Source: Anaerolineaceae bacterium
Lineage (GTDB): Bacteria > Chloroflexota > Anaerolineae > Anaerolineales > Anaerolineaceae
NCBI GenBank assembly: GCA_029265815.1
Contig: JAJUGU010000003.1
Coordinates: 1 to 64,000 of the forward strand
DNA length: 64,000 nucleotides
Direction: 5' to 3'
In this document: piece after piece, positions 2,129 through 10,292 of the stretch
How positions within the stretch are numbered: the first letter of the stretch is position 1
Layout of the letters: the number at the start of each line of letters is the position of its first letter
Notes under the pieces: generated by a model
What the model was told of the DNA's origin: nothing
The model's database searches: none
What the model saw: only the letters and a program-made list of their open reading frames with translations
Made by a program: the position numbers and the translations under genes

Positions 2129-3862
2129 TTAGTAAGATTCCTGTTGCCGGTGTTTTGCCTGTTGGAGAATTTCTTCCGCTGCCTTCTGGTTACTCTCCCC
2201 CGTGCTTCCAGTCATAAGCGCCAGTTCCATCACCCGTTCATCACCAGATAACGCTTCCACTCCCGTCAATGTACGCTCCCCAACAATCCTCTTACTCACC
2301 TTGAAGTGTTCATCACCGAACGCGGCTAATTGAGAAAGATGGGTCACACACATCACCTGATGCTTGCGCGCCAGGCGCCATAATTTTTCACCCACGATGA
2401 ACCCAACCCGCCCGCCGATGCCCTGATCGATTTCATCAAAGATCAATGTAGGAACGTAATCAGCCTGTGCCAGCACATTCTTTAATGCCAGCATCAAACG
2501 CGAGGTCTCACCGCCAGACGCGATCTTGACCAGTGGTTTCAATCCTTCTCCGGGGTTCGGCGCGATCATGAATTCCACCTGATCCATCCCGGTCACTGAA
2601 AAGGCGATCTTTTTACCCTGTTCAATCTCCAATCCACTCGCTGATTCTGGCTGGTGAAATTCCACGGCAAACTTCGCCCCCGCCAGGCTGAGATCGCTCA
2701 ACTCATTTTCAACCGCCCTGCTCATTCTTGCCGCGGCTTCACGGCGGACTGCCGTGAGAGCCTGCCCCGCAGCGACAGTCCGTTCGATAATCTCTTTTTC
2801 CTGTTCTTCGAGTTCCCGAATGCGTTCTCCCGCTGTTTGCACTTTTTCAAGCTGTGCGCGCGCGTTCCGTCCATATTCGATCGCGGCTTCAATTGATCCG
2901 CCATATTTTCGTTTCAACTGGTGAATAAGCTCCAGGCGGGTTTCCACCTGTTCCAGCCGTCTGGGATTGAATTCGATACCATCCAGGTAACGCCGCAGGT
3001 CACGGTTAATTTCGCCTAACGTCGCCACCAGATCATCCAGCTGGTTTTGAAGCGCGGTTTGCGCCGGGTCTATCTTTGCCAGCCCGGCAACCAGGCGGCT
3101 GGCCTGCCCGAGCAAATCAATGGCAGAAGAGGTTTCTGGCGAACCCTCATCCAGCATCGCAAGCGCTTCCTGGGTCGAACTGGAAAGGGTCTCGGCGTTC
3201 GCCAGGCGGCTGCGTTCCTGTTCCAGTTCCTCCTCTTCACCCGGCTTCAACTGTGCTGCTTCGATCTCCTGCACCTGAAAGTTTAACAATTCTGACCGTT
3301 TGGCCGATTCCAGTTCAAGGTCACGCAGGCTCTTCAACTCTTTGCGCAGATCCTGCAGCCGGTGATACTCCGCACGGTATCGCGCAAGCTCAACCTCGCA
3401 GCCCGCGTATCGATCGAGCAACCCAAGGTGTGAACGAACGTCCAAAAGAGAAAGATGTTCCGACTGGCCGTGAATATCCACCAGATACGTGCCCAGTTCT
3501 TTCAATAGCCCCACGTTGACACTGCGGCCGTTAACCCGGGCAACATTGCGCCCTTCAACGCGGATCTCGCGTCCAAGGGTCAGGTACGGTTCGTTTTCGT
3601 ACAAATCCTCACGTTTAAGTATGGAGGTAATTTCTTCGAAATAAGTTTCAGGAATTGGGAAAAGAGCTTCTAACACAGCCCGCTCAGCCCCTTTGCGCAC
3701 CATCGATCCATCCACCTTGCCGCCAACCAGCGCCATGATGGCATCAAGGATGATGGACTTGCCGGCTCCGGTCTCGCCTGTAAAAATGACCAGACCGCTG
3801 TCAAAGTGCAGCTCAAGTTCCTGGATAATGGCAAAATTTTCGATGCGCAGTTCTTTGAGCAT
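2129..3862 (-). CDS. recN: DNA repair protein RecN
   Basis: RecN is an SMC-like ATPase that acts at double-strand breaks during recombinational repair. At 577 residues it has the family's normal length. Walker A GETGAGKS is at residues 29-36, a long coiled coil fills the middle (roughly 150-370), and the C-terminal half carries the ABC signature (ASGGETSRLMLALK) and Walker B (TLIFDEIDQGIGG). The N-terminal MLKELRIENFAII is typical of the family. It sits 11 bases downstream of the zinc-finger membrane protein gene and just upstream of the SARP regulator, in an all-minus run headed by nadK. A nadK-recN neighbourhood is common in bacteria, which supports both calls. Confidence 0.96.
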   Translation of the reverse strand: MLKELRIENFAIIQELELHFDSGLVIFTGETGAGKSIILDAIMALVGGKVDGSMVRKGAERAVLEALFPIPETYFEEITSILKREDLYENEPYLTLGREIRVEGRNVARVNGRSVNVGLLKELGTYLVDIHGQSEHLSLLDVRSHLGLLDRYAGCEVELARYRAEYHRLQDLRKELKSLRDLELESAKRSELLNFQVQEIEAAQLKPGEEEELEQERSRLANAETLSSSTQEALAMLDEGSPETSSAIDLLGQASRLVAGLAKIDPAQTALQNQLDDLVATLGEINRDLRRYLDGIEFNPRRLEQVETRLELIHQLKRKYGGSIEAAIEYGRNARAQLEKVQTAGERIRELEEQEKEIIERTVAAGQALTAVRREAAARMSRAVENELSDLSLAGAKFAVEFHQPESASGLEIEQGKKIAFSVTGMDQVEFMIAPNPGEGLKPLVKIASGGETSRLMLALKNVLAQADYVPTLIFDEIDQGIGGRVGFIVGEKLWRLARKHQVMCVTHLSQLAAFGDEHFKVSKRIVGERTLTGVEALSGDERVMELALMTGSTGESNQKAAEEILQQAKHRQQESY

Positions 3863-3873
3863 GGCTCAACCTT

Positions 3874-4413
3874 TTATAAGCGGATTCCTTTAAGCCGGTA
3901 AAACACCGTGCTGGTCACCAGAACGGCATACACCGCCGGCCACAACATTCCAAGCAGCATCGACAAGCCTTGATCGCCGCTTAGAAACATCAGAGATAGA
4001 ACCAACCGAAACAACGGTGATATGATCGCGCCGATCAAAGTTGCCGCGGCGGCTGCCAGCGTCAGCGCCTGAGAGCGGCGCTTTCGAACAACAAAGCGCA
4101 CTGCCTCAGCGATAATCATCCCTGCTACTGGCGCCACCAGGATCGTGAAAAACCCTAAGATGCCAGCGATCAGGCTGCCCACATAAGAAAGCCCACCAGC
4201 GGTGATGACACCAAGCGGATAATCCCACCAGCGTGTGGTATCAAAGATCTTTTGCTGCCCGCGCACACACTCCTTACAGCGATAGCCAGTGGGCGTCAAA
4301 ACGGCACAAGATTGACACATCGGCCGTTCGCACCGATTACAGCGTAGCAGCGTTTCGCGTTGAGGGTGGGCATAACAATACATCGGTTGTGATTGTGATG
4401 AATCTTCGGTCAT
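3874..4413 (-). CDS. B-box-like zinc-finger membrane protein
   Basis: The 179-residue protein has a cytosolic metal-binding N-terminus and a hydrophobic C-terminal two-thirds. Potential zinc ligands are C13, H16, C25, C28, C33, C36, C46 and C49, a spacing like the B-box zinc fingers found in front of bacterial rhomboids. Three or four membrane segments follow, in about 65-105, 115-145 and 150-172. No rhomboid Ser/His motif is present, so it is not itself a rhomboid protease. Its ATG shares a base with the nadK stop (TAATG), implying translational coupling. Function unknown; the conserved Zn-finger/membrane layout is what can be seen. Confidence 0.8.
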   Translation of the reverse strand: MTEDSSQSQPMYCYAHPQRETLLRCNRCERPMCQSCAVLTPTGYRCKECVRGQQKIFDTTRWWDYPLGVITAGGLSYVGSLIAGILGFFTILVAPVAGMIIAEAVRFVVRKRRSQALTLAAAAATLIGAIISPLFRLVLSLMFLSGDQGLSMLLGMLWPAVYAVLVTSTVFYRLKGIRL

Positions 4414-5282
4414 TAAATATCACCAATGGATGGATTTTGTTCCATATAATTACGCAGGTTGCGGTAGAAATATCCAGGGTCCTGAAAAACGACAAACTTG
4501 ATGGTGAAGTCGCTGGCTGTCACAATCACGTAATCGCCATTGTGCAGCAGGGCTGGCGGGTGGCCGTCAACGCTGACCACCGCTTCATGATCGCTGGTGG
4601 TGCTGATCTTCACGCTCGCACCTTCCGGAAGAATCACTGCCCTGTCAAATGAGAGATGCGGTGCGACTGGTGTGATCAGGATATTGCGCATTTCCGGCGG
4701 TAGGATTGGTCCGCCTACCGCCAGCGCGTAGGCTGTTGACCCTGTTGGAGTTGAAGCGATCAAACCATCTGCCACATAACCCGCCAGCGGGTACCCATCT
4801 ACTTCAGCATGGATGCGAATGGGGCGCACCACCTGACCGCGGGCAACGACCACCTCGTTGATGACCTGATCTGTGTTAAGCAGGTTTCCCTCATGCCAGT
4901 GTTCAGCTTTGAGCATCATGCGGTTCTCGATTTTAAAGTCGCCGTTAATCAGACGCGGCAGGCTTTGCTGCCAATCAGCTCGCGTCAACTGCATCAGAAA
5001 CCCAAACTTGCCGAGATTGATCCCAAGGATCGGCAGCCCGTGAGGAGCCGCCAGATGACCGGCACGCAGCATGGTTCCATCCCCGCCCAGCGCGATAAGC
5101 AGGTCAAATTTTCTAGCGGCGATCTCTTGAAGTAAAAGGGGATCATCTGTGGTTGAAACCCGGCTGGCTACACCTCGACTATCCAGCCATGCCTGAATCA
5201 CCTCTCCCTCTTTTAGAGTATCAGGAGATCCTGGTTTTGTGACGATCGCAATGCGTTGAATGGACTCGAATAATTCGTGCAT
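4413..5282 (-). CDS. nadK: NAD kinase
   Basis: NAD kinase phosphorylates NAD+ to NADP+ in the cytosol. The hallmark GGDGT is at residues 66-70, followed by LGINLGKFGFL (86-96) and the glycine-rich ATP/NAD-binding TPTGSTAYALAVGGP (178-192). The length of 289 residues is normal. It opens a minus-strand run with the zinc-finger membrane protein, recN and the SARP regulator. A perfect TATAAT at 5291-5296 lies only 8 bases before the ATG, next to a weak AAAGG, so the transcript may have almost no 5' leader. Confidence 0.96.
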   Translation of the reverse strand: MHELFESIQRIAIVTKPGSPDTLKEGEVIQAWLDSRGVASRVSTTDDPLLLQEIAARKFDLLIALGGDGTMLRAGHLAAPHGLPILGINLGKFGFLMQLTRADWQQSLPRLINGDFKIENRMMLKAEHWHEGNLLNTDQVINEVVVARGQVVRPIRIHAEVDGYPLAGYVADGLIASTPTGSTAYALAVGGPILPPEMRNILITPVAPHLSFDRAVILPEGASVKISTTSDHEAVVSVDGHPPALLHNGDYVIVTASDFTIKFVVFQDPGYFYRNLRNYMEQNPSIGDI

Positions 5283-5354
5283 TACCTTTTATTATAACGA
5301 TAATAAGCATTTTCAAGAGTGAAGATGTTGCTGTATGACGAGCTTTTAAACATC

Positions 5355-5385
5355 AATGCGCGACCAGACCGAGTGATCGCGCATT
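5355..5385 (-). terminator. Hairpin between small membrane gene and nadK
   Basis: AATGCGCGA at 5355-5363 pairs perfectly with TCGCGCATT at 5377-5385 around a 13-base loop. It lies downstream of the 57-residue membrane gene on the minus strand. The following bases (GATGTTTAAA) are only weakly T-rich, so termination is plausible but not certain. Confidence 0.5.
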
Positions 5386-5406
5386 TCAGCATTTTATCGT
5401 GTAGGG

Positions 5407-5580
5407 TTATCGAAGGATCAAACCCAGGTAATATGGCCAGATCACCAGCCCAAGCAAAGCCTTCCACCAGACCAGCTGGGCAAAAGCAATCGTAAACAGC
5501 CAACCGGCAAACCAGAACCCGCCCACCAGGCTACCACCATCGTGATGATGCACATGCTTGCATTGAGTTTCAGTTTCCAT
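5407..5580 (-). CDS. Small membrane protein, 57 residues
   Basis: A short gene starts at ATG 5580 behind a good ribosome binding site (AAGGAG about 10 bases upstream) and stops with TAA at 5407. The product begins METETQCKHVHHHDGG, a polar His-rich N-terminus with one Cys. It then has two hydrophobic stretches, GGFWFAGWLFTIAFAQLVW and ALLGLVIWPYYLGLIL, which look like two membrane helices. The His/Cys-rich head might bind metal, but this is inference. No family was recognised. It is followed by a hairpin and then nadK. Confidence 0.7.
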   Translation of the reverse strand: METETQCKHVHHHDGGSLVGGFWFAGWLFTIAFAQLVWWKALLGLVIWPYYLGLILR

Positions 5581-5597
5581 TCTCTTTACTCCTTCAT

Positions 5598-5625
5598 CAA
5601 TCTATGTATATTTCATATACGTAGA
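5598..5625. promoter_or_regulatory. AT-rich inverted repeat upstream of small membrane gene
   Basis: TATGTATAT and ATATACGTA flank a 3-base centre just upstream of the 57-residue membrane gene, with one mismatch in nine pairs. On the minus strand it includes a TATACAT that could serve as a -10 element. It may be an operator or simply promoter AT-richness. Confidence 0.3.
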
Positions 5626-5815
5626 TACAGACATCGGAGTTGTAACCGCGCGATGGGTTACCAGATGCCTGGCAGGAGCCGCAGTAGCACACCAGAGATC
5701 AATCGTCCATTTTGGGTTTGAGAATTCGCCATTTCTCCTCCATTCCCTTAATTCCATGGCAAAACCGGTTACGAACGCATGGTTTGCCAATCACCTGGAT
5801 TGAAGCTAACAGATT

Positions 5816-6529
5816 CTACTGCTTACGTTTCCACCATAATCCGGTACATTCGGGCAATGTAACCTTTTCCTCTTGCTCGATCTTTCCTTTCATCTCCTCA
5901 CCGAAAAAGAAACCGGCCAATTCATTTCCCTCTTCAATGGAATCGAACCGGTAATCGGTGCGTATCCAGGTGGATGAATACCCCTGCCATGCAAGAAAGG
6001 CGTAGTAGTCTTTCAGGTGATCAGGAGGGGTGGGAGTTTTAAACCCCGTGCCCAGCGTCTCGAGCAGGATGACCACACCCCCCGGTTTGATGGCGCGCTC
6101 CATCTCGGCCAGGGCTTTACTCACTTCGGCCTGCCAATCTTCACCCTCCCAATCCACCAGATAGCAAATGCTCCATCCAGATAGGGCGATGTCGGCGCAG
6201 CCGTCAGCCACGGGAATCTTGCGGTTGTCACTAACCTCAAGCTGCCAGTTGGTCAGGCCAGCGGTTTTCAGTTTACGCTGCGCCACTGCCAGCATGTGCT
6301 CCGAGGCATCAAAAGCGCGGATGGCGTTTACCAGCGGTGCAACCATGCAGGTCAGGCGTCCGGTTCCCGCGCCCAGCTCCACCACATCTCTGCCCATCAG
6401 AGGGGTAATGGCCAGGATAGCTTTGAGTATGTTTTGCTGATGATCCTCGCGTGAAACCAGGCGTTCGTATTGCTCCGCCTGCTGTCGGTAGATTTCTTTA
6501 TGAATTTGTTGTTCCAATCTTTCGGCCAT
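5816..6529 (-). CDS. Class I SAM-dependent methyltransferase
   Basis: The 237-residue protein has the Rossmann methyltransferase core. Motif I is VVELGAGTGRLT around residues 49-60, an acidic residue follows at the end of the second strand (IRAFDAS), and a later strand reads GGVVILLETLG. It resembles the broad UbiE/Methyltransf_11-type small-molecule methylases. The substrate cannot be told from sequence. It is apparently monocistronic, lying between the 57-residue membrane gene and the restriction-modification island, and has ordinary base composition compared with that AT-rich island. Confidence 0.85.
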   Translation of the reverse strand: MAERLEQQIHKEIYRQQAEQYERLVSREDHQQNILKAILAITPLMGRDVVELGAGTGRLTCMVAPLVNAIRAFDASEHMLAVAQRKLKTAGLTNWQLEVSDNRKIPVADGCADIALSGWSICYLVDWEGEDWQAEVSKALAEMERAIKPGGVVILLETLGTGFKTPTPPDHLKDYYAFLAWQGYSSTWIRTDYRFDSIEEGNELAGFFFGEEMKGKIEQEEKVTLPECTGLWWKRKQ

Positions 6530-6623
6530 AGTTGGATTATTTGAATAAAAGTATATTTTATTACCTACTAAAACCTAGACAATTGGAAGATAGAAACGAT
6601 AATCATAATTTTAGTTTTTTTCG

Positions 6624-7319
6624 CTAATCATTCTGATCTTTTTTAAATTCTTTATTATTGTCGTGAATAGAATACCTCTGGCTATTATTTGCATAAGTTA
6701 CCCAAGATATTTGGTAAGTTTCAGCCTCGTTTCCCCATTGATCCCACCCTGGTCTTTGCCCCCTAGCGAATAATTCCAGATAAGGGCCCGGGCTGCATTC
6801 TTCAATTATTTCATATAGTTCATCAGGTTTTCTTGAATGCTCCCGTTTCTGAGTTTTCAGAATATTTACTTGTGTTCGTCCCCTCTCCAAAGTACGTAGT
6901 TTACCCCGCGTACCAAAAAGTACCAGTTCGGTTGTATTTCTAAAATAGAAACCTACACCCCTACCATCTGGTTCTCCATCTTTTCGAACCTTGTGCCAGA
7001 CAATATTAGTTTTGTATTGAAACCCCCACGCTTCCATTACTTCCAATCCTTCTCTTAACAAAGCATTTGGAACCCAAAGATATAAATGGCTCTGATTCGA
7101 AGCTACAACACCTACGGGAATGTCTTTAATCTCCTGAAGTGATAATGTCGCATATCGATTAAGGCGTTTATGTTCAGGTGCTACTTTTCCAGTACGATTT
7201 TGAAATTGCCACGGTGGATCAGCAAGAATTGTTCCATAACCAATTTTTTGGATATGATCGAGAAAATCTTGTGCAGGGGTTAAAGAATTATTTTTGGCAA
7301 TTTCAGCAATTTTCTTCAT
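6624..7319 (-). CDS. MT-A70 family adenine DNA methyltransferase
   Basis: The product is a 231-residue N6-adenine methylase of the MT-A70 family. The catalytic DPPW is at residues 34-37 within GTILADPPWQFQNR, and the C-terminal part has the SAM-binding-like PGPYLELFARGQRPGW. In bacteria such enzymes are often the modification half of type II systems, and its gene overlaps the 3' end of the restriction nuclease by 17 bases. The DNA here is visibly more AT-rich than the flanks, consistent with horizontal transfer. It should methylate the sequence cut by the neighbouring nuclease; the target is not readable from sequence. Confidence 0.88.
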   Translation of the reverse strand: MKKIAEIAKNNSLTPAQDFLDHIQKIGYGTILADPPWQFQNRTGKVAPEHKRLNRYATLSLQEIKDIPVGVVASNQSHLYLWVPNALLREGLEVMEAWGFQYKTNIVWHKVRKDGEPDGRGVGFYFRNTTELVLFGTRGKLRTLERGRTQVNILKTQKREHSRKPDELYEIIEECSPGPYLELFARGQRPGWDQWGNEAETYQISWVTYANNSQRYSIHDNNKEFKKDQND

Positions 7320-7893
7320 ATAAATCTTTCTTTATTCCGAATACCAAGAGTGGACAGCCACCTCCACCGCCACCCTCAATTTTTCTTAATAATTTCGACA
7401 TATGGGTTGTGGATTGTCCATAGGAAGATCCTCGTCCAAGTTTATCAAAAATTTCCTGTAATTCGTCGCATCTTGTGATAATTACTCCCACGCTAATTGC
7501 GCGTAAATCAAACAATAAACGAAAATTGTTTAAGTCTCTGTCAAAAAAAGGGTCTTTGTTATTCCACTCGATCTCTAATGCCACATGATTTTTATAACAA
7601 TCAACTTTGTGAGTTGGTGATTGCATGATCAAATCATCAACCTTCATGGATGTCTCAAATTCCTTTTCACACCATCCACGGTCATATAGAAAGTGATCAA
7701 TTGTCTCCGAGACTAATGATTTCCTTCCACCACCTACATTAATCCAACTTTTACAAAACTTAAATTTTGTAAGTAAGTCAATTATATCTTTCCATTCAGT
7801 CGCAAAATCATTATTAAGTATCGCACAAGCATGTTTCCACTCATGAACCTCATATTTTTCAAGTATTGATGCAGGCAGCAATTCTAGACTCAT
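7303..7893 (-). CDS. BglII/BstYI-like type II restriction endonuclease
   Basis: This 196-residue protein resembles the Endonuc-BglII family. The likely catalytic set is D98, E107 and E109 in KVDCYKNHVALEIEWNN; the D-x8-E-x-[QE] spacing matches that described for BglII (D84, E93, Q95), with Glu in place of Gln. The downstream DPFFDRDLNNFR and GVIITRCDELQ segments also fit. Family members cut AGATCT or RGATCY, so a GATC-centred palindrome is a reasonable guess. It lies upstream of, and overlaps, the MT-A70 methylase. The C-terminal region has a run of six glycines (174-179). The AT-rich composition suggests recent acquisition. Confidence 0.82.
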   Translation of the reverse strand: MSLELLPASILEKYEVHEWKHACAILNNDFATEWKDIIDLLTKFKFCKSWINVGGGRKSLVSETIDHFLYDRGWCEKEFETSMKVDDLIMQSPTHKVDCYKNHVALEIEWNNKDPFFDRDLNNFRLLFDLRAISVGVIITRCDELQEIFDKLGRGSSYGQSTTHMSKLLRKIEGGGGGGCPLLVFGIKKDLYEENC

Positions 7894-7931
7894 AACTTTT
7901 TTTCTCCAGCCCGAATTCTAATCATTGTCAA

Positions 7932-8579
7932 TTACTCTTTCATCCCCGGGAACTTTTCAGAAAATTTCTGCAGCGCATCCTGCAAATGCTGCTCACGCAG
8001 GCTGAGCGTCAGATCAGCGCGCGTGCGTTCGACGATCCCGCGCACCAGGTCGGTCTGCCGCCGCAGCCCGTCGGTAATGGCATCGGGGTAATCGAGGGTG
8101 ACCAGAAAGTTGTAGATCTCGTCCATGGTGGTTAGCAGGCGCTCGGCTTCTTCTGAATAACCCTGCCGCAGGATATCCAGACAGCGGCGCCTCAATTCAC
8201 CGATCGATTCCGCCAGCCCGCGCACATATGTGGCGTACTCAATGCCCAGTTCTTCCGGTCGTGGCAGGCGCCGGTTTTCGATCAGCGCACAGGTCAGTTC
8301 GGCTTCCGCAAACTCCTTGATCGCATCTTGCGTATAGCCTGCAAAATATAGATCCGGGTATGCAGCCAGATCGCGCTGCATATTCAACACCAGAGCATGG
8401 GCATCCAGCAGCAGATCGGTCGCTTCCAGACTCTCCCCGCGGTGAATGGCACGGATGGCATGCGCCGAGAGGCGCGTCAATTGCCGTGCCTGCACCAGAG
8501 CCTGGTCGCGAATCTGGGTGCGTTCATCAAATATCTTTCTGGTGTTTTCAACAATCTCATTAAACTCTTGCATGATCAC
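7932..8579 (-). CDS. Translin family protein
   Basis: The 215-residue, almost entirely helical protein matches the translin/TRAX family, known for binding single-stranded DNA and RNA and, in TRAX-like members, cleaving RNA. The acidic cluster EFAEAE (E89, E92, E94) lies where catalytic or metal-binding glutamates sit in TRAX-like proteins. The C-terminal part (LRRRCLDILRQG, then LVTLDYPDAITDGLRRQTDLVRG in part) is characteristic. GTG at 8579 overlaps the DUF3467 stop by one base; an in-frame ATG follows two codons later. It is the third gene of an ssb-DUF3467-translin unit, hinting at a role in handling single-stranded nucleic acid. Confidence 0.88.
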   Translation of the reverse strand: MIMQEFNEIVENTRKIFDERTQIRDQALVQARQLTRLSAHAIRAIHRGESLEATDLLLDAHALVLNMQRDLAAYPDLYFAGYTQDAIKEFAEAELTCALIENRRLPRPEELGIEYATYVRGLAESIGELRRRCLDILRQGYSEEAERLLTTMDEIYNFLVTLDYPDAITDGLRRQTDLVRGIVERTRADLTLSLREQHLQDALQKFSEKFPGMKE

Positions 8580-8914
8580 TAATCCGTTTTCGGGGGTTCA
8601 GGCGGGTGTACCTGTCTAAAAAGATCATCTGCCAGCCCTGAATTGCCGGGCAGAATGATCTCTCCAAATGACGCTTCATAGCGCGCAATGTTTTCTGCCA
8701 GGGCGCGCAGCAGCAACTTGGCTCCCACCGGTGAAAGCAGGATGCGTACCAGCACAGGGATGCGTTTTTGACCAGGCAGCAAACGGCAAAAATCAACCGT
8801 GAGTTCCGAGGGCGTATGGCTGATACGAGCCAGGTTGCTGTAAACCGGCTCTAAATCTTCCGGCAGTTCCATGGGCGGCATCCCATGAGCCGGATTCTTG
8901 GGTTCCTCGTTCAT
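8579..8914 (-). CDS. DUF3467 domain protein
   Basis: The 111-residue protein matches DUF3467: VYSNLARISHTPSELTVDF, then VPVLVRILLSPVGAKLLLRALAENIARYEASFGEI in overlapping parts. Function is unknown. It lies 9 bases after ssb and overlaps the translin start by one base, so the three are almost certainly translated together. The proline-rich N- and C-terminal tails are probably disordered. Confidence 0.85.
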   Translation of the reverse strand: MNEEPKNPAHGMPPMELPEDLEPVYSNLARISHTPSELTVDFCRLLPGQKRIPVLVRILLSPVGAKLLLRALAENIARYEASFGEIILPGNSGLADDLFRQVHPPEPPKTD

Positions 8915-8923
8915 CAGATATCC

Positions 8924-9340
8924 TTAAAAGGGAATTTCTTCTGATGGAGGAGTCTCCCCTTCCTCTTCCATTCCGCTTTCCATTCCGCCTTCCGTCTTGG
9001 CAGATAGGAATTTCACGGTCTGCGCGGTTACTTCGTAGGTTGCCCGTGGTGTTCCATCCTGCCCGACCCACGTCCGCGGTCCGCCCGATTTTGGATCCAC
9101 GGTGAGACGGCCCTCAACCAGCACCAGTTTGCCTTTTTGCAGAAAATTATTGCAGGTTTCGGCAAGTTTTCCCCAGGCTGTAACCTTGAACCAGACGGTT
9201 TCTTTAACAAGCTTCCCTGATTGATCTGTGTATTGCCGGTCTGTAGCCACCGAAAAACTGGTCACGGCCTGACCGGTAGGGGTGTAGCGCATCTCAGGAT
9301 CTCTTCCAAGCCTGCCAACGAGTATCAATTTTTGAAACAT
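8924..9340 (-). CDS. ssb: Single-stranded DNA-binding protein
   Basis: SSB coats single-stranded DNA during replication, repair and recombination. The OB fold covers residues 1-110 (MFQKLILVGRLGRDPEMRYT at the start, VEGRL in the core). The acidic tail ends in EEIPF, the partner-binding tip typical of bacterial SSBs. The length of 138 residues is normal. A strong GAGGAGGA ribosome site precedes the ATG. It is not beside rpsF/rpsR as in many bacteria; instead it leads DUF3467 and translin genes. Confidence 0.95.
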   Translation of the reverse strand: MFQKLILVGRLGRDPEMRYTPTGQAVTSFSVATDRQYTDQSGKLVKETVWFKVTAWGKLAETCNNFLQKGKLVLVEGRLTVDPKSGGPRTWVGQDGTPRATYEVTAQTVKFLSAKTEGGMESGMEEEGETPPSEEIPF

Positions 9341-9488
9341 GGGTTCCTCCTCAAAGGCACGTACATTGAATGGCAGAATATTGATAATTTAATTTTACAC
9401 GAAAAGGGATTTTTATGCCCGAAGGCGCCTTTGTTACTTCTGGTACCCCAAAAAACTTAAAAAGTTTGATGTTATAATCCTGCATAAG

Positions 9489-10292
9489 ATGACTCCTCAA
9501 CGAAAATCATTTTTTTCTGTCATACTTTTAGGGCTGCTTGTCTTAGCCCTTTTCATCGCATCAGGTATTTACTCAACACCTGTTAGCGCGCAAGTGTTGT
9601 ACTTTACACCAACAGCCGATTCCAGCGGTGCGATCTACTATGTTGTCAAACAGGGTGATACCTGTGACAGCATTGCCCTCATGAACAACATTGACGTAGA
9701 AAGGCTGCGCACACTCAACGGGCTCGATTTCGATAAATGCCGCTTTCTTCAGCTGGGTCAGAAGCTGCTCCTTGGTACGATTCCAACTCCTGAGATCACT
9801 GCCGGACCCTCTCCTACACCCACGTCCATCCTGCCCACGCCTCAACCCGCTCAAGGATATGGGTCTATTTGCATTTATCTTTACGACGATGTAAACGGTA
9901 ATGCCATGGCAGAAGATGAAGAGATCGCCAACACGGGTATCGGTGGCGGCGAGATCAGCATCACCCATATGGAAGGCAAATACTCCAACACCGGTACGAC
10001 CCTGAGCGATGGCAGTTCGGTTTGTTTTGAAGATATCCCCGAGGGAGAATACTCAATCAGTATCGCTATCCCCGATGGTTATAACGCCACCTCGGCACAG
10101 AACGTCACAGTGAATTTAAAAGCCGGTGACACCTCGCATATCAATTTCAGCGCCCAGGTCAGCGGGCATATGATCAATATACAGCAAGACGAAGAGGGCG
10201 GATCAGTATTCCTCGCAGTTATTGGCGGCATCATCCTTCTGGCCGGCATTGGCGTGGGAATTTACGCCCGTTACATGATCAGATCAAAGTAA
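9489..10292 (+). CDS. LysM and SdrD-B-like surface protein
   Basis: The 267-residue protein begins with a hydrophobic signal or anchor (about residues 9-30). A LysM domain follows (YYVVKQGDTCDSIALMNNI through GQKLLLG, about 54-97), expected to bind peptidoglycan-type glycans. After a Pro/Thr linker comes a Cna-B/SdrD-like beta-sandwich (SICIYLYDDVNGN, about 125-215), then a C-terminal membrane segment (about 238-262) ending in RYMIRSK. It is probably a membrane-anchored envelope protein. No Shine-Dalgarno sequence is seen, and TATAAT lies 10 bases before the ATG. A hairpin terminator follows. Confidence 0.82.
   Translation: MTPQRKSFFSVILLGLLVLALFIASGIYSTPVSAQVLYFTPTADSSGAIYYVVKQGDTCDSIALMNNIDVERLRTLNGLDFDKCRFLQLGQKLLLGTIPTPEITAGPSPTPTSILPTPQPAQGYGSICIYLYDDVNGNAMAEDEEIANTGIGGGEISITHMEGKYSNTGTTLSDGSSVCFEDIPEGEYSISIAIPDGYNATSAQNVTVNLKAGDTSHINFSAQVSGHMINIQQDEEGGSVFLAVIGGIILLAGIGVGIYARYMIRSK

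Follow-up and report, generated by a model that had tools for sequence, protein, structure and literature searches.

What task, if any, unites a single-stranded DNA-binding protein (SSB), a protein of the DUF3467 family and a relative of translin, whose genes lie head to tail in the order ssb, DUF3467 and translin on the minus strand of the window (the whole stretch of 64,000 nucleotides of Anaerolineaceae DNA analysed here)? The sequence-only reading of this locus had described three genes joined by a 9-base gap and a 1-base overlap, and the coordinates of the open reading frames agree with this layout: ssb (8924-9340, minus strand) encodes 138 residues from an ATG and specifies an OB-fold SSB, a paralogue distinct from the SSB linked to rpsF and rpsR; the DUF3467 gene (8579-8914, minus strand) encodes 111 residues, also from an ATG, and belongs to Pfam family PF11950; and the gene for a Trax-like protein of the translin superfamily (7932-8579, minus strand) encodes 215 residues from a GTG, with an in-frame ATG at 8571-8573 as an alternative start giving 213 residues. 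The gap between ssb and the DUF3467 gene comprises the 9 bases 8915-8923, and base 8579 is common to the TAG stop codon of DUF3467 and the GTG start codon of the translin gene. The identities assigned to the first two products were likewise upheld, with Pfam scores of 104.4 bits for the SSB (PF00436, cut-off 26) and 65.7 bits for DUF3467 (cut-off 25). Scans of positions 3700-9700 returned 7 sigma-70 sites against 7.4 in shuffled sequences and 8 terminator sites against 6.2, about no excess in either case.

The gene order was compared over 61 genomes of the same order with completeness of 68-100% (the window's own genome, 15 from the same genus, 21 from the same family and 24 from the same order), with adjacency taken from match coordinates. 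SSB was matched in all 61, the translin family in 59 and DUF3467 in 52; the complete set ssb-DUF3467-translin lies adjacent on one strand in 51 of the 61, the window's own genome included, and in seven more ssb directly precedes translin without DUF3467. Of the remaining three genomes, G016 and G055 gave no translin match and G052 carries translin near the start of a contig, the latter being the sole exception amongst the 59 translin-bearing genomes to an SSB match just upstream of translin (58/59). Conservation is far lower 5' of ssb, where the most frequent gene families comprise 9 and 8 ORFs.

In a phylum-wide sample of 201 genomes, translin was found in 112, DUF3467 in 37 and SSB in 196. 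Of the 37 DUF3467 genomes, 18 have this gene next to translin by match coordinates, 16 of them belonging to the window's order and 2 (G201, G247) to its class, and at the 30 best-scoring translin loci outside the class (L061-L090) neither SSB nor DUF3467 was matched within about 1.5 kb in any case. The three-gene order, the absence of which from relatives would have counted against the sequence-only reading, is therefore conserved within the window's order and, amongst the genomes compared, beyond it only in two class members: the trio is an operon at the level of the order and not one found throughout bacteria. With the linkage confined to one order and a few members of the class, much of it can be put down to common descent. 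Spread on mobile elements was considered and rejected, a search for translin in a plasmid collection having given no match. Amongst the outer loci, those of family f28 (L061-L063, L066, L075, L080, L082, L084, L085) show translin flanked, by our reading of the sequences, by a thiamine-phosphate-synthase-like gene before and a membrane pyrophosphatase-like gene after it, and a stop codon was counted inside the translin match at four of these loci.

The third product had been named translin, which stands at the level of the superfamily and can be made more exact: the protein appears to be Trax-like, i.e. of the catalytic kind. It scores 21.7 bits against the Pfam Translin model (PF01997), under the cut-off of 25.9, and an operon relative in locus L123 scores 30.6 bits, above it. 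Using phmmer, query residues 10-191 of 215 were matched to Archaeoglobus fulgidus Trax (AfTrax, PDB ID: 3zc1) with an E-value of 2.9e-20, and NEQ131 from Nanoarchaeum equitans was matched with an E-value of 1.6e-9; because of the AfTrax match over residues 10-191, we consider the superfamily assignment right. The NCBIfam model PRK14562.1-5 gives 242.9 bits, below its own cut-off of 291, and, given the AfTrax match, we consider the name attached to the matching models ('haloacid dehalogenase superfamily protein') to be wrong.

The codons of Glu89, Glu92, Glu124 and Glu128 of this protein fall within 8196-8315 (minus strand). These acids were compared over 95 aligned rows, made up of AfTrax, the window protein and 93 sequences taken at loci of the phylum, one of which (L001) is the window copy a second time. 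All 95 rows have Glu at positions 89, 92 and 128, and 94 have it at position 124; here AfTrax has Asp, which is replaced by Ala in the deposited 3zc0 chain. From this Asp-to-Ala difference, we take position 124 to be an active-site residue. AfTrax and the bacterial protein, both stand-alone Trax-like proteins, thus exhibit the same acidic positions, although the Asp that is Ala in 3zc0 is Glu in the bacterial protein. In a passage of PMC9246224, Trax and not Translin is the catalytic partner, with Translin lacking most of the residues, and archaea have one paralogue that is nearer to Trax; a passage of PMC9051087 states that the Trax of N. equitans alone degrades RNA by oligomerising. Given the conserved acids and the catalytic role of Trax, the bacterial protein looks able to cut RNA and is a putative RNase. 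Its gene differs from those of AfTrax and NEQ131 in that it sits in an ssb operon. It also belongs to the same superfamily as C3PO, the eukaryotic Translin-Trax hetero-octamer, but C3PO has two partners, whilst 58 of the 59 same-order genomes with translin have a single paralogue (G008 has two) and a separate non-catalytic Translin was recognised in none of these 59.

The SSB of the operon carries a distinctive C-terminus. The window protein ends in EEIPF, with the codons of the IPF tip at 8927-8935 (minus strand), and 60 of 61 distinct tails of operon SSBs end in [IVL]PF; the sole tail lacking this end belongs to a stray SSB fragment in a Bacteroidota locus. None of 23 sampled SSBs whose short locus also contains a match to rpsF and/or rpsR has an [IVL]PF end (0/23): 19 end in [FY]PF, two in YPY and two (L211, L240) lack a tip of this kind. 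Such C-terminal tips of SSB dock partner proteins in other bacteria. As the tips of the two types differ, the operon SSB and the ribosomal-operon SSB may address different partners. The operon protein can be the main SSB of a cell, because it is the only SSB match in G031, a genome that comprises one contig and is 99% complete. In the window's genome there is a third SSB (L210; G000:C4:1998-2414), which is close to the operon type (207 bits) and is located on a 3.9-kb contig beside an ORF that we read as RadC-like.

DUF3467 had been put forward as a partner of SSB and translin. The adjacency of the genes in 51 of 61 genomes speaks for this, but the association is unspecific on the side of DUF3467. 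A scan of named genomes yielded 591 confirmed DUF3467 loci, the best 80 of which comprise, by title, 10 of Chloroflexota type, 64 from Bacteroidota, 5 others and L132. Of the 64 Bacteroidota loci within these best 80 of 591, 27 have rpoC as the immediate upstream neighbour on the same strand and 37 do not, and 4 have rpsL as the immediate downstream neighbour. In the 49 genomes reached via 50 of the best 80 loci, a translin match was obtained in only 5, all of Chloroflexota type, and none in the other 44 (38 Bacteroidota, 5 from other groups and L132). In addition, SSB-translin pairs persist without DUF3467 in seven same-order genomes. At three loci (L136 and L151, both WOR-3, and L168), the genes behind DUF3467 form a cluster that includes one of poly(A)/CCA polymerase type, identified in L136 as a poly(A)/CCA polymerase (PF01743); by our reading, a peptidase-like and then an FtsK-like gene come after the polymerase-type gene. 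A divergent DUF3467 subfamily is found in one family of the phylum (L109-L113), near genes for a TPR protein and a CbiX-type chelatase and with no ssb or translin nearby within the fetched 1.5 kb.

The DUF3467 core has 11 invariant positions over 74 rows and shows strong cross-phylum conservation of Asn27, His33, Glu37, Asp41, Arg57 and Glu80; no basic residue of the strands other than Arg57 is invariant. AlphaFold2 models of the window protein and of the Bacteroidota core (mean pLDDT 85.5 and 84.1) both predict three strands and one long helix, i.e. a beta-beta-beta-alpha core spanning window residues 28-83. No solved structure was found by sequence with the single protein as query at E-values up to 1, and the DUF3467 profile gave nothing significant (best E-value 0.92). 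Foldseek against the PDB and viral models gave no match at an E-value of 0.001 or better, with values no better than 0.16: for the window model, MoSub1, a relative of PC4, was ranked 1 (E-value 0.23), and the top ranks with the Bacteroidota model went to IscB, glucokinase, Hsp70-type ATPases and RuvC, with MoSub1 at rank 11 (E-value 0.68). A second look with VIA-align gave its highest ranks to COMM domains, PUR-alpha, PC4/Sub1 and MRP1/MRP2; the top Z values of 4.3 (window) and 5.4 (Bacteroidota) are weak and of a size that can reflect a common arrangement. The individual superpositions are correspondingly weak: the window model gave Z 3.7 with both PC4 (1pcf; rmsd 3.5, 56 aligned) and Borrelia PUR (3n8b; rmsd 4.5, 61 aligned), and the Bacteroidota model gave Z 5.0 with PUR 3n8b (rmsd 2.7, 60 aligned), Z 4.7 with PC4 1pcf (rmsd 3.1, 55 aligned) and Z 5.4 with COMMD 8esd (rmsd 6.3, 72 aligned). 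The strands-plus-helix arrangement is all that the DUF3467 models have in common with PC4/Sub1, PUR-alpha, MRP1/MRP2 and COMM domains, and COMM domains, which to our knowledge are not nucleic-acid binders, score as high as PC4 and PUR. The mean net charge of the core is +1.5 over the 11 rows grouped as Chloroflexota and +3.0 over 58 Bacteroidota rows; with weak fold matches and a core that is only slightly basic, we regard a role of DUF3467 as a single-strand binder as no more than plausible. Homology to BssS was also considered, as 46 of 74 DUF3467 members match Pfam BssS at E-values up to 1 (best 8e-4), but it failed in hhalign, where the DUF3467 profile and E. coli K-12 BssS gave a probability of 3.2 over 30 columns, and is kept as a lead.

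Beyond the core, the window protein carries a tail with the motif LADDLF (8618-8635, minus strand), a candidate docking peptide, with a short helix predicted at residues 95-98. Bacteroidota PF11950 proteins exhibit the same conserved core as the window protein but lack an LAxxLF-type tail. When 149 distinct DUF3467 proteins were searched for L[AD]x(1-4)[LF]F after the core, the motif was present in 63 of 64 Chloroflexota-group copies whose fetched locus holds an ssb and/or translin match, in none of the 10 Chloroflexota-group copies without such a match in the locus (L132 included) and in none of the 75 other copies, one of which has a stray SSB fragment in its locus. As independent covariation of motif and linkage, this was rejected as strong evidence: a tree of 106 rows shows 2 changes of the motif and 3 of the linkage, which leaves only 2-3 independent comparisons. 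With two changes on the tree, the origin of the motif lies close to a single event, so that the tail appears to have arisen about once and its distribution proves little statistically; it does, however, offer a clear target for mutation.

The surroundings downstream of the trio were analysed in 20 loci for which longer flanking sequence was taken; some of these loci stop early. On the same strand after translin come a small ORF (12/20) and a Cas4-like ORF (11/20), followed further downstream by nadK (12/20), a zinc-finger gene (12/20) and recN (11/20). The window keeps the last three: nadK, encoding NAD kinase (4413-5282, minus strand; Pfam NAD_kinase_C, E-value 2.8e-29), a gene for a 179-residue protein that we read as a membrane protein (3874-4413, minus strand; zf-B_box 20.7 bits, under the cut-off of 24.1) and a gene that we read as recN-like (2129-3862, minus strand; RecF/RecN/SMC N-terminal domain, Pfam E-value 6.8e-15), with which the cluster as covered here ends. 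The Cas4-like PD-(D/E)XK nuclease is split over these two ORFs, as in L050 (1253-1495 and 1512-2024; neighbour-gene clusters 6 and 8), each half having its own hydrophobic segment that we read as membrane-like. The N half matches positions 2-44 (E-value 2e-4) and the C half positions 58-178 (E-value 1e-19) of a 180-position Cas4 profile, which would leave the usual Fe-S cysteines divided between two polypeptides. Of the 61 same-order genomes, 27 carry the C half no more than 1.5 kb downstream of translin; the window's genome has no match to it. Translin and nadK are separated in the window by 5283-7931, which holds a BglII-type endonuclease (7303-7893), an MT-A70 methyltransferase (6624-7319) and a second methyltransferase (5816-6529). 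Since GC falls to 36-41% at about 6.5-8 kb and nadK directly follows translin in the same-genus relatives L011, L017, L018 and L027, this stretch looks like a recently inserted restriction-modification pair. Neighbouring nadK and recN are common in bacteria; RecN together with SSB points to DNA repair or replication stress, and the frequent presence of the Cas4-like nuclease, nadK and recN downstream would suit a setting of genome maintenance.

The sequence-only reading had taken the tight gene order to suggest a shared task on single-stranded DNA or RNA. With the order conserved in 51 of 61 genomes, such a shared job does seem likely. As best explanation, which we hold tentatively and at somewhat less than even chances, the trio would be one conserved operon that deals with single-stranded nucleic acid at transcription-replication or repair intermediates. 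The SSB would coat single-stranded DNA laid open by transcription-replication conflicts or at repair intermediates, a closed oligomer of the Trax-like protein would cut RNA at those sites, and DUF3467, small and perhaps dimeric, would bind single strands or RNA polymerase and act as an adapter, with its C-terminal tail docking to the SSB or to the Trax-like protein. We favour this explanation because the trio (51/61) or the ssb-translin pair (7/61) is retained while the upstream genes vary, because the acidic cluster is invariant save for one Glu/Asp swap and the SSB tip is distinct, because the operon SSB is the only SSB match in G031, because the Cas4-like halves, nadK and recN lie downstream in 11 or 12 of 20 sampled loci, because 27 of the 64 Bacteroidota loci have DUF3467 directly after rpoC, and because VIA-align ranks PC4/Sub1, PUR-alpha and MRP1/MRP2, along with COMM domains, highest. 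In its favour is also a passage of PMC9246224, by which Translin of fission yeast assists RNA polymerase II in dissociating and restrains genome instability. Against it stand the linkage confined to one order and a few class members, the weak and mixed fold matches, the small core charge, the seven pairs without DUF3467, the 37 of 64 loci without rpoC directly upstream and the judgement in PMC9246224 that the yeast role is likely independent of RNase activity and of Trax, unlike the role proposed here. The main rival, which we rate only slightly lower, holds that the genes are co-transcribed without forming a shared machine: separate housekeeping functions, with the Trax-like protein as a tRNA- or RNA-processing RNase, would be kept together beside nadK-recN by descent and shared regulation. 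The confinement of the trio to one order and few class members, the 30 of 30 translin loci outside the class without ssb or DUF3467 within about 1.5 kb, the occurrence of DUF3467 without translin in 44 searched genomes and, in a passage of PMC5424206, the linkage of archaeal TRAX to SepRS, a tRNA synthetase, all agree with this; mere co-transcription accounts less well for a trio kept across the order's 15 sampled families while upstream genes change, for an ssb-translin pair kept where DUF3467 is missing and for a DUF3467 tail that is specific to the operon.

A different emphasis, which we consider unlikely, makes DUF3467 mainly an accessory factor of RNA polymerase that was recruited here and couples SSB and the Trax-like RNase to transcription. 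The position of rpoC directly upstream (27/64) and rpsL directly downstream (4/64) in the Bacteroidota loci, the cross-phylum conservation of the six residues and the weak resemblance of the predicted fold to the coactivator PC4 lend it some weight, but rpoC is missing from that position in 37 of these 64 loci, three loci have the cluster with a polymerase-type gene of the poly(A)/CCA kind behind DUF3467 instead, and no solved structure containing DUF3467 was found by sequence. A function in defence or against mobile elements, with SSB working alongside nucleases, appears very improbable for the operon: a Cas4-like nuclease does lie in the wider cluster of many relatives, and the BglII-type endonuclease and a methyltransferase gene lie directly downstream in the window, yet PADLOC returned nothing at an E-value of 0.01 or better with any of the three proteins, almost the whole order carries the trio, which is thus not patchy, and the endonuclease/methyltransferase stretch, with its lower GC and with nadK next to translin in some same-genus relatives, looks like a recent insertion. 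Returning to the preferred explanation of a joint task on single strands, a bolder version can be envisaged, with little probability in our estimate, by which DUF3467 would be a widespread transcription-linked, PC4-like factor that in Anaerolineales is tethered by its tail to SSB and the Trax-like RNase, the three removing RNA from R-loops or stalled transcription complexes. If true, such a machine would parallel in bacteria what Translin/Trax does for genome stability in eukaryotes.

The open-access literature searched on translin and Trax is mostly concerned with eukaryotes, and no description of this operon was found in it. Gupta 2012 reportedly treats the evolution of translin in eubacteria, and bacterial translins as such are therefore already known. 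In the literature searched, DUF3467 was met only as an entry in a proteome table of P. gingivalis, with function not assigned, and PF11950 was not mentioned. The operon gives a first functional lead on DUF3467, and an order-wide operon that joins a catalytic-looking Trax to SSB is a testable setting for the original role of translin/Trax.

DUF3467 was also encountered on records of mobile elements, comprising four plasmid and two phage records. Three of the four plasmid records are from Bacteroidales, and two of these are annotated with rpoC or rpsL nearby. A search of PHROGs with DUF3467 returned one significant family, phrog_7919, the function of which is not assigned there. One phage record, the tailed phage Marinitoga camini virus 2 (L120; KP836356.2), encodes a small DUF3467-like protein (tblastn E-value 5e-4; phrog_7919 E-value 2.7e-10), which is annotated as hypothetical and is located among mostly hypothetical genes. 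The other (L121; MT836236.1, 'Bacteriophage sp.') shows matches to rpoC, DUF3467, rpsL, rpsG, fusA and rpsJ and is, despite its phage label, apparently a fragment of a Bacteroidota chromosome.
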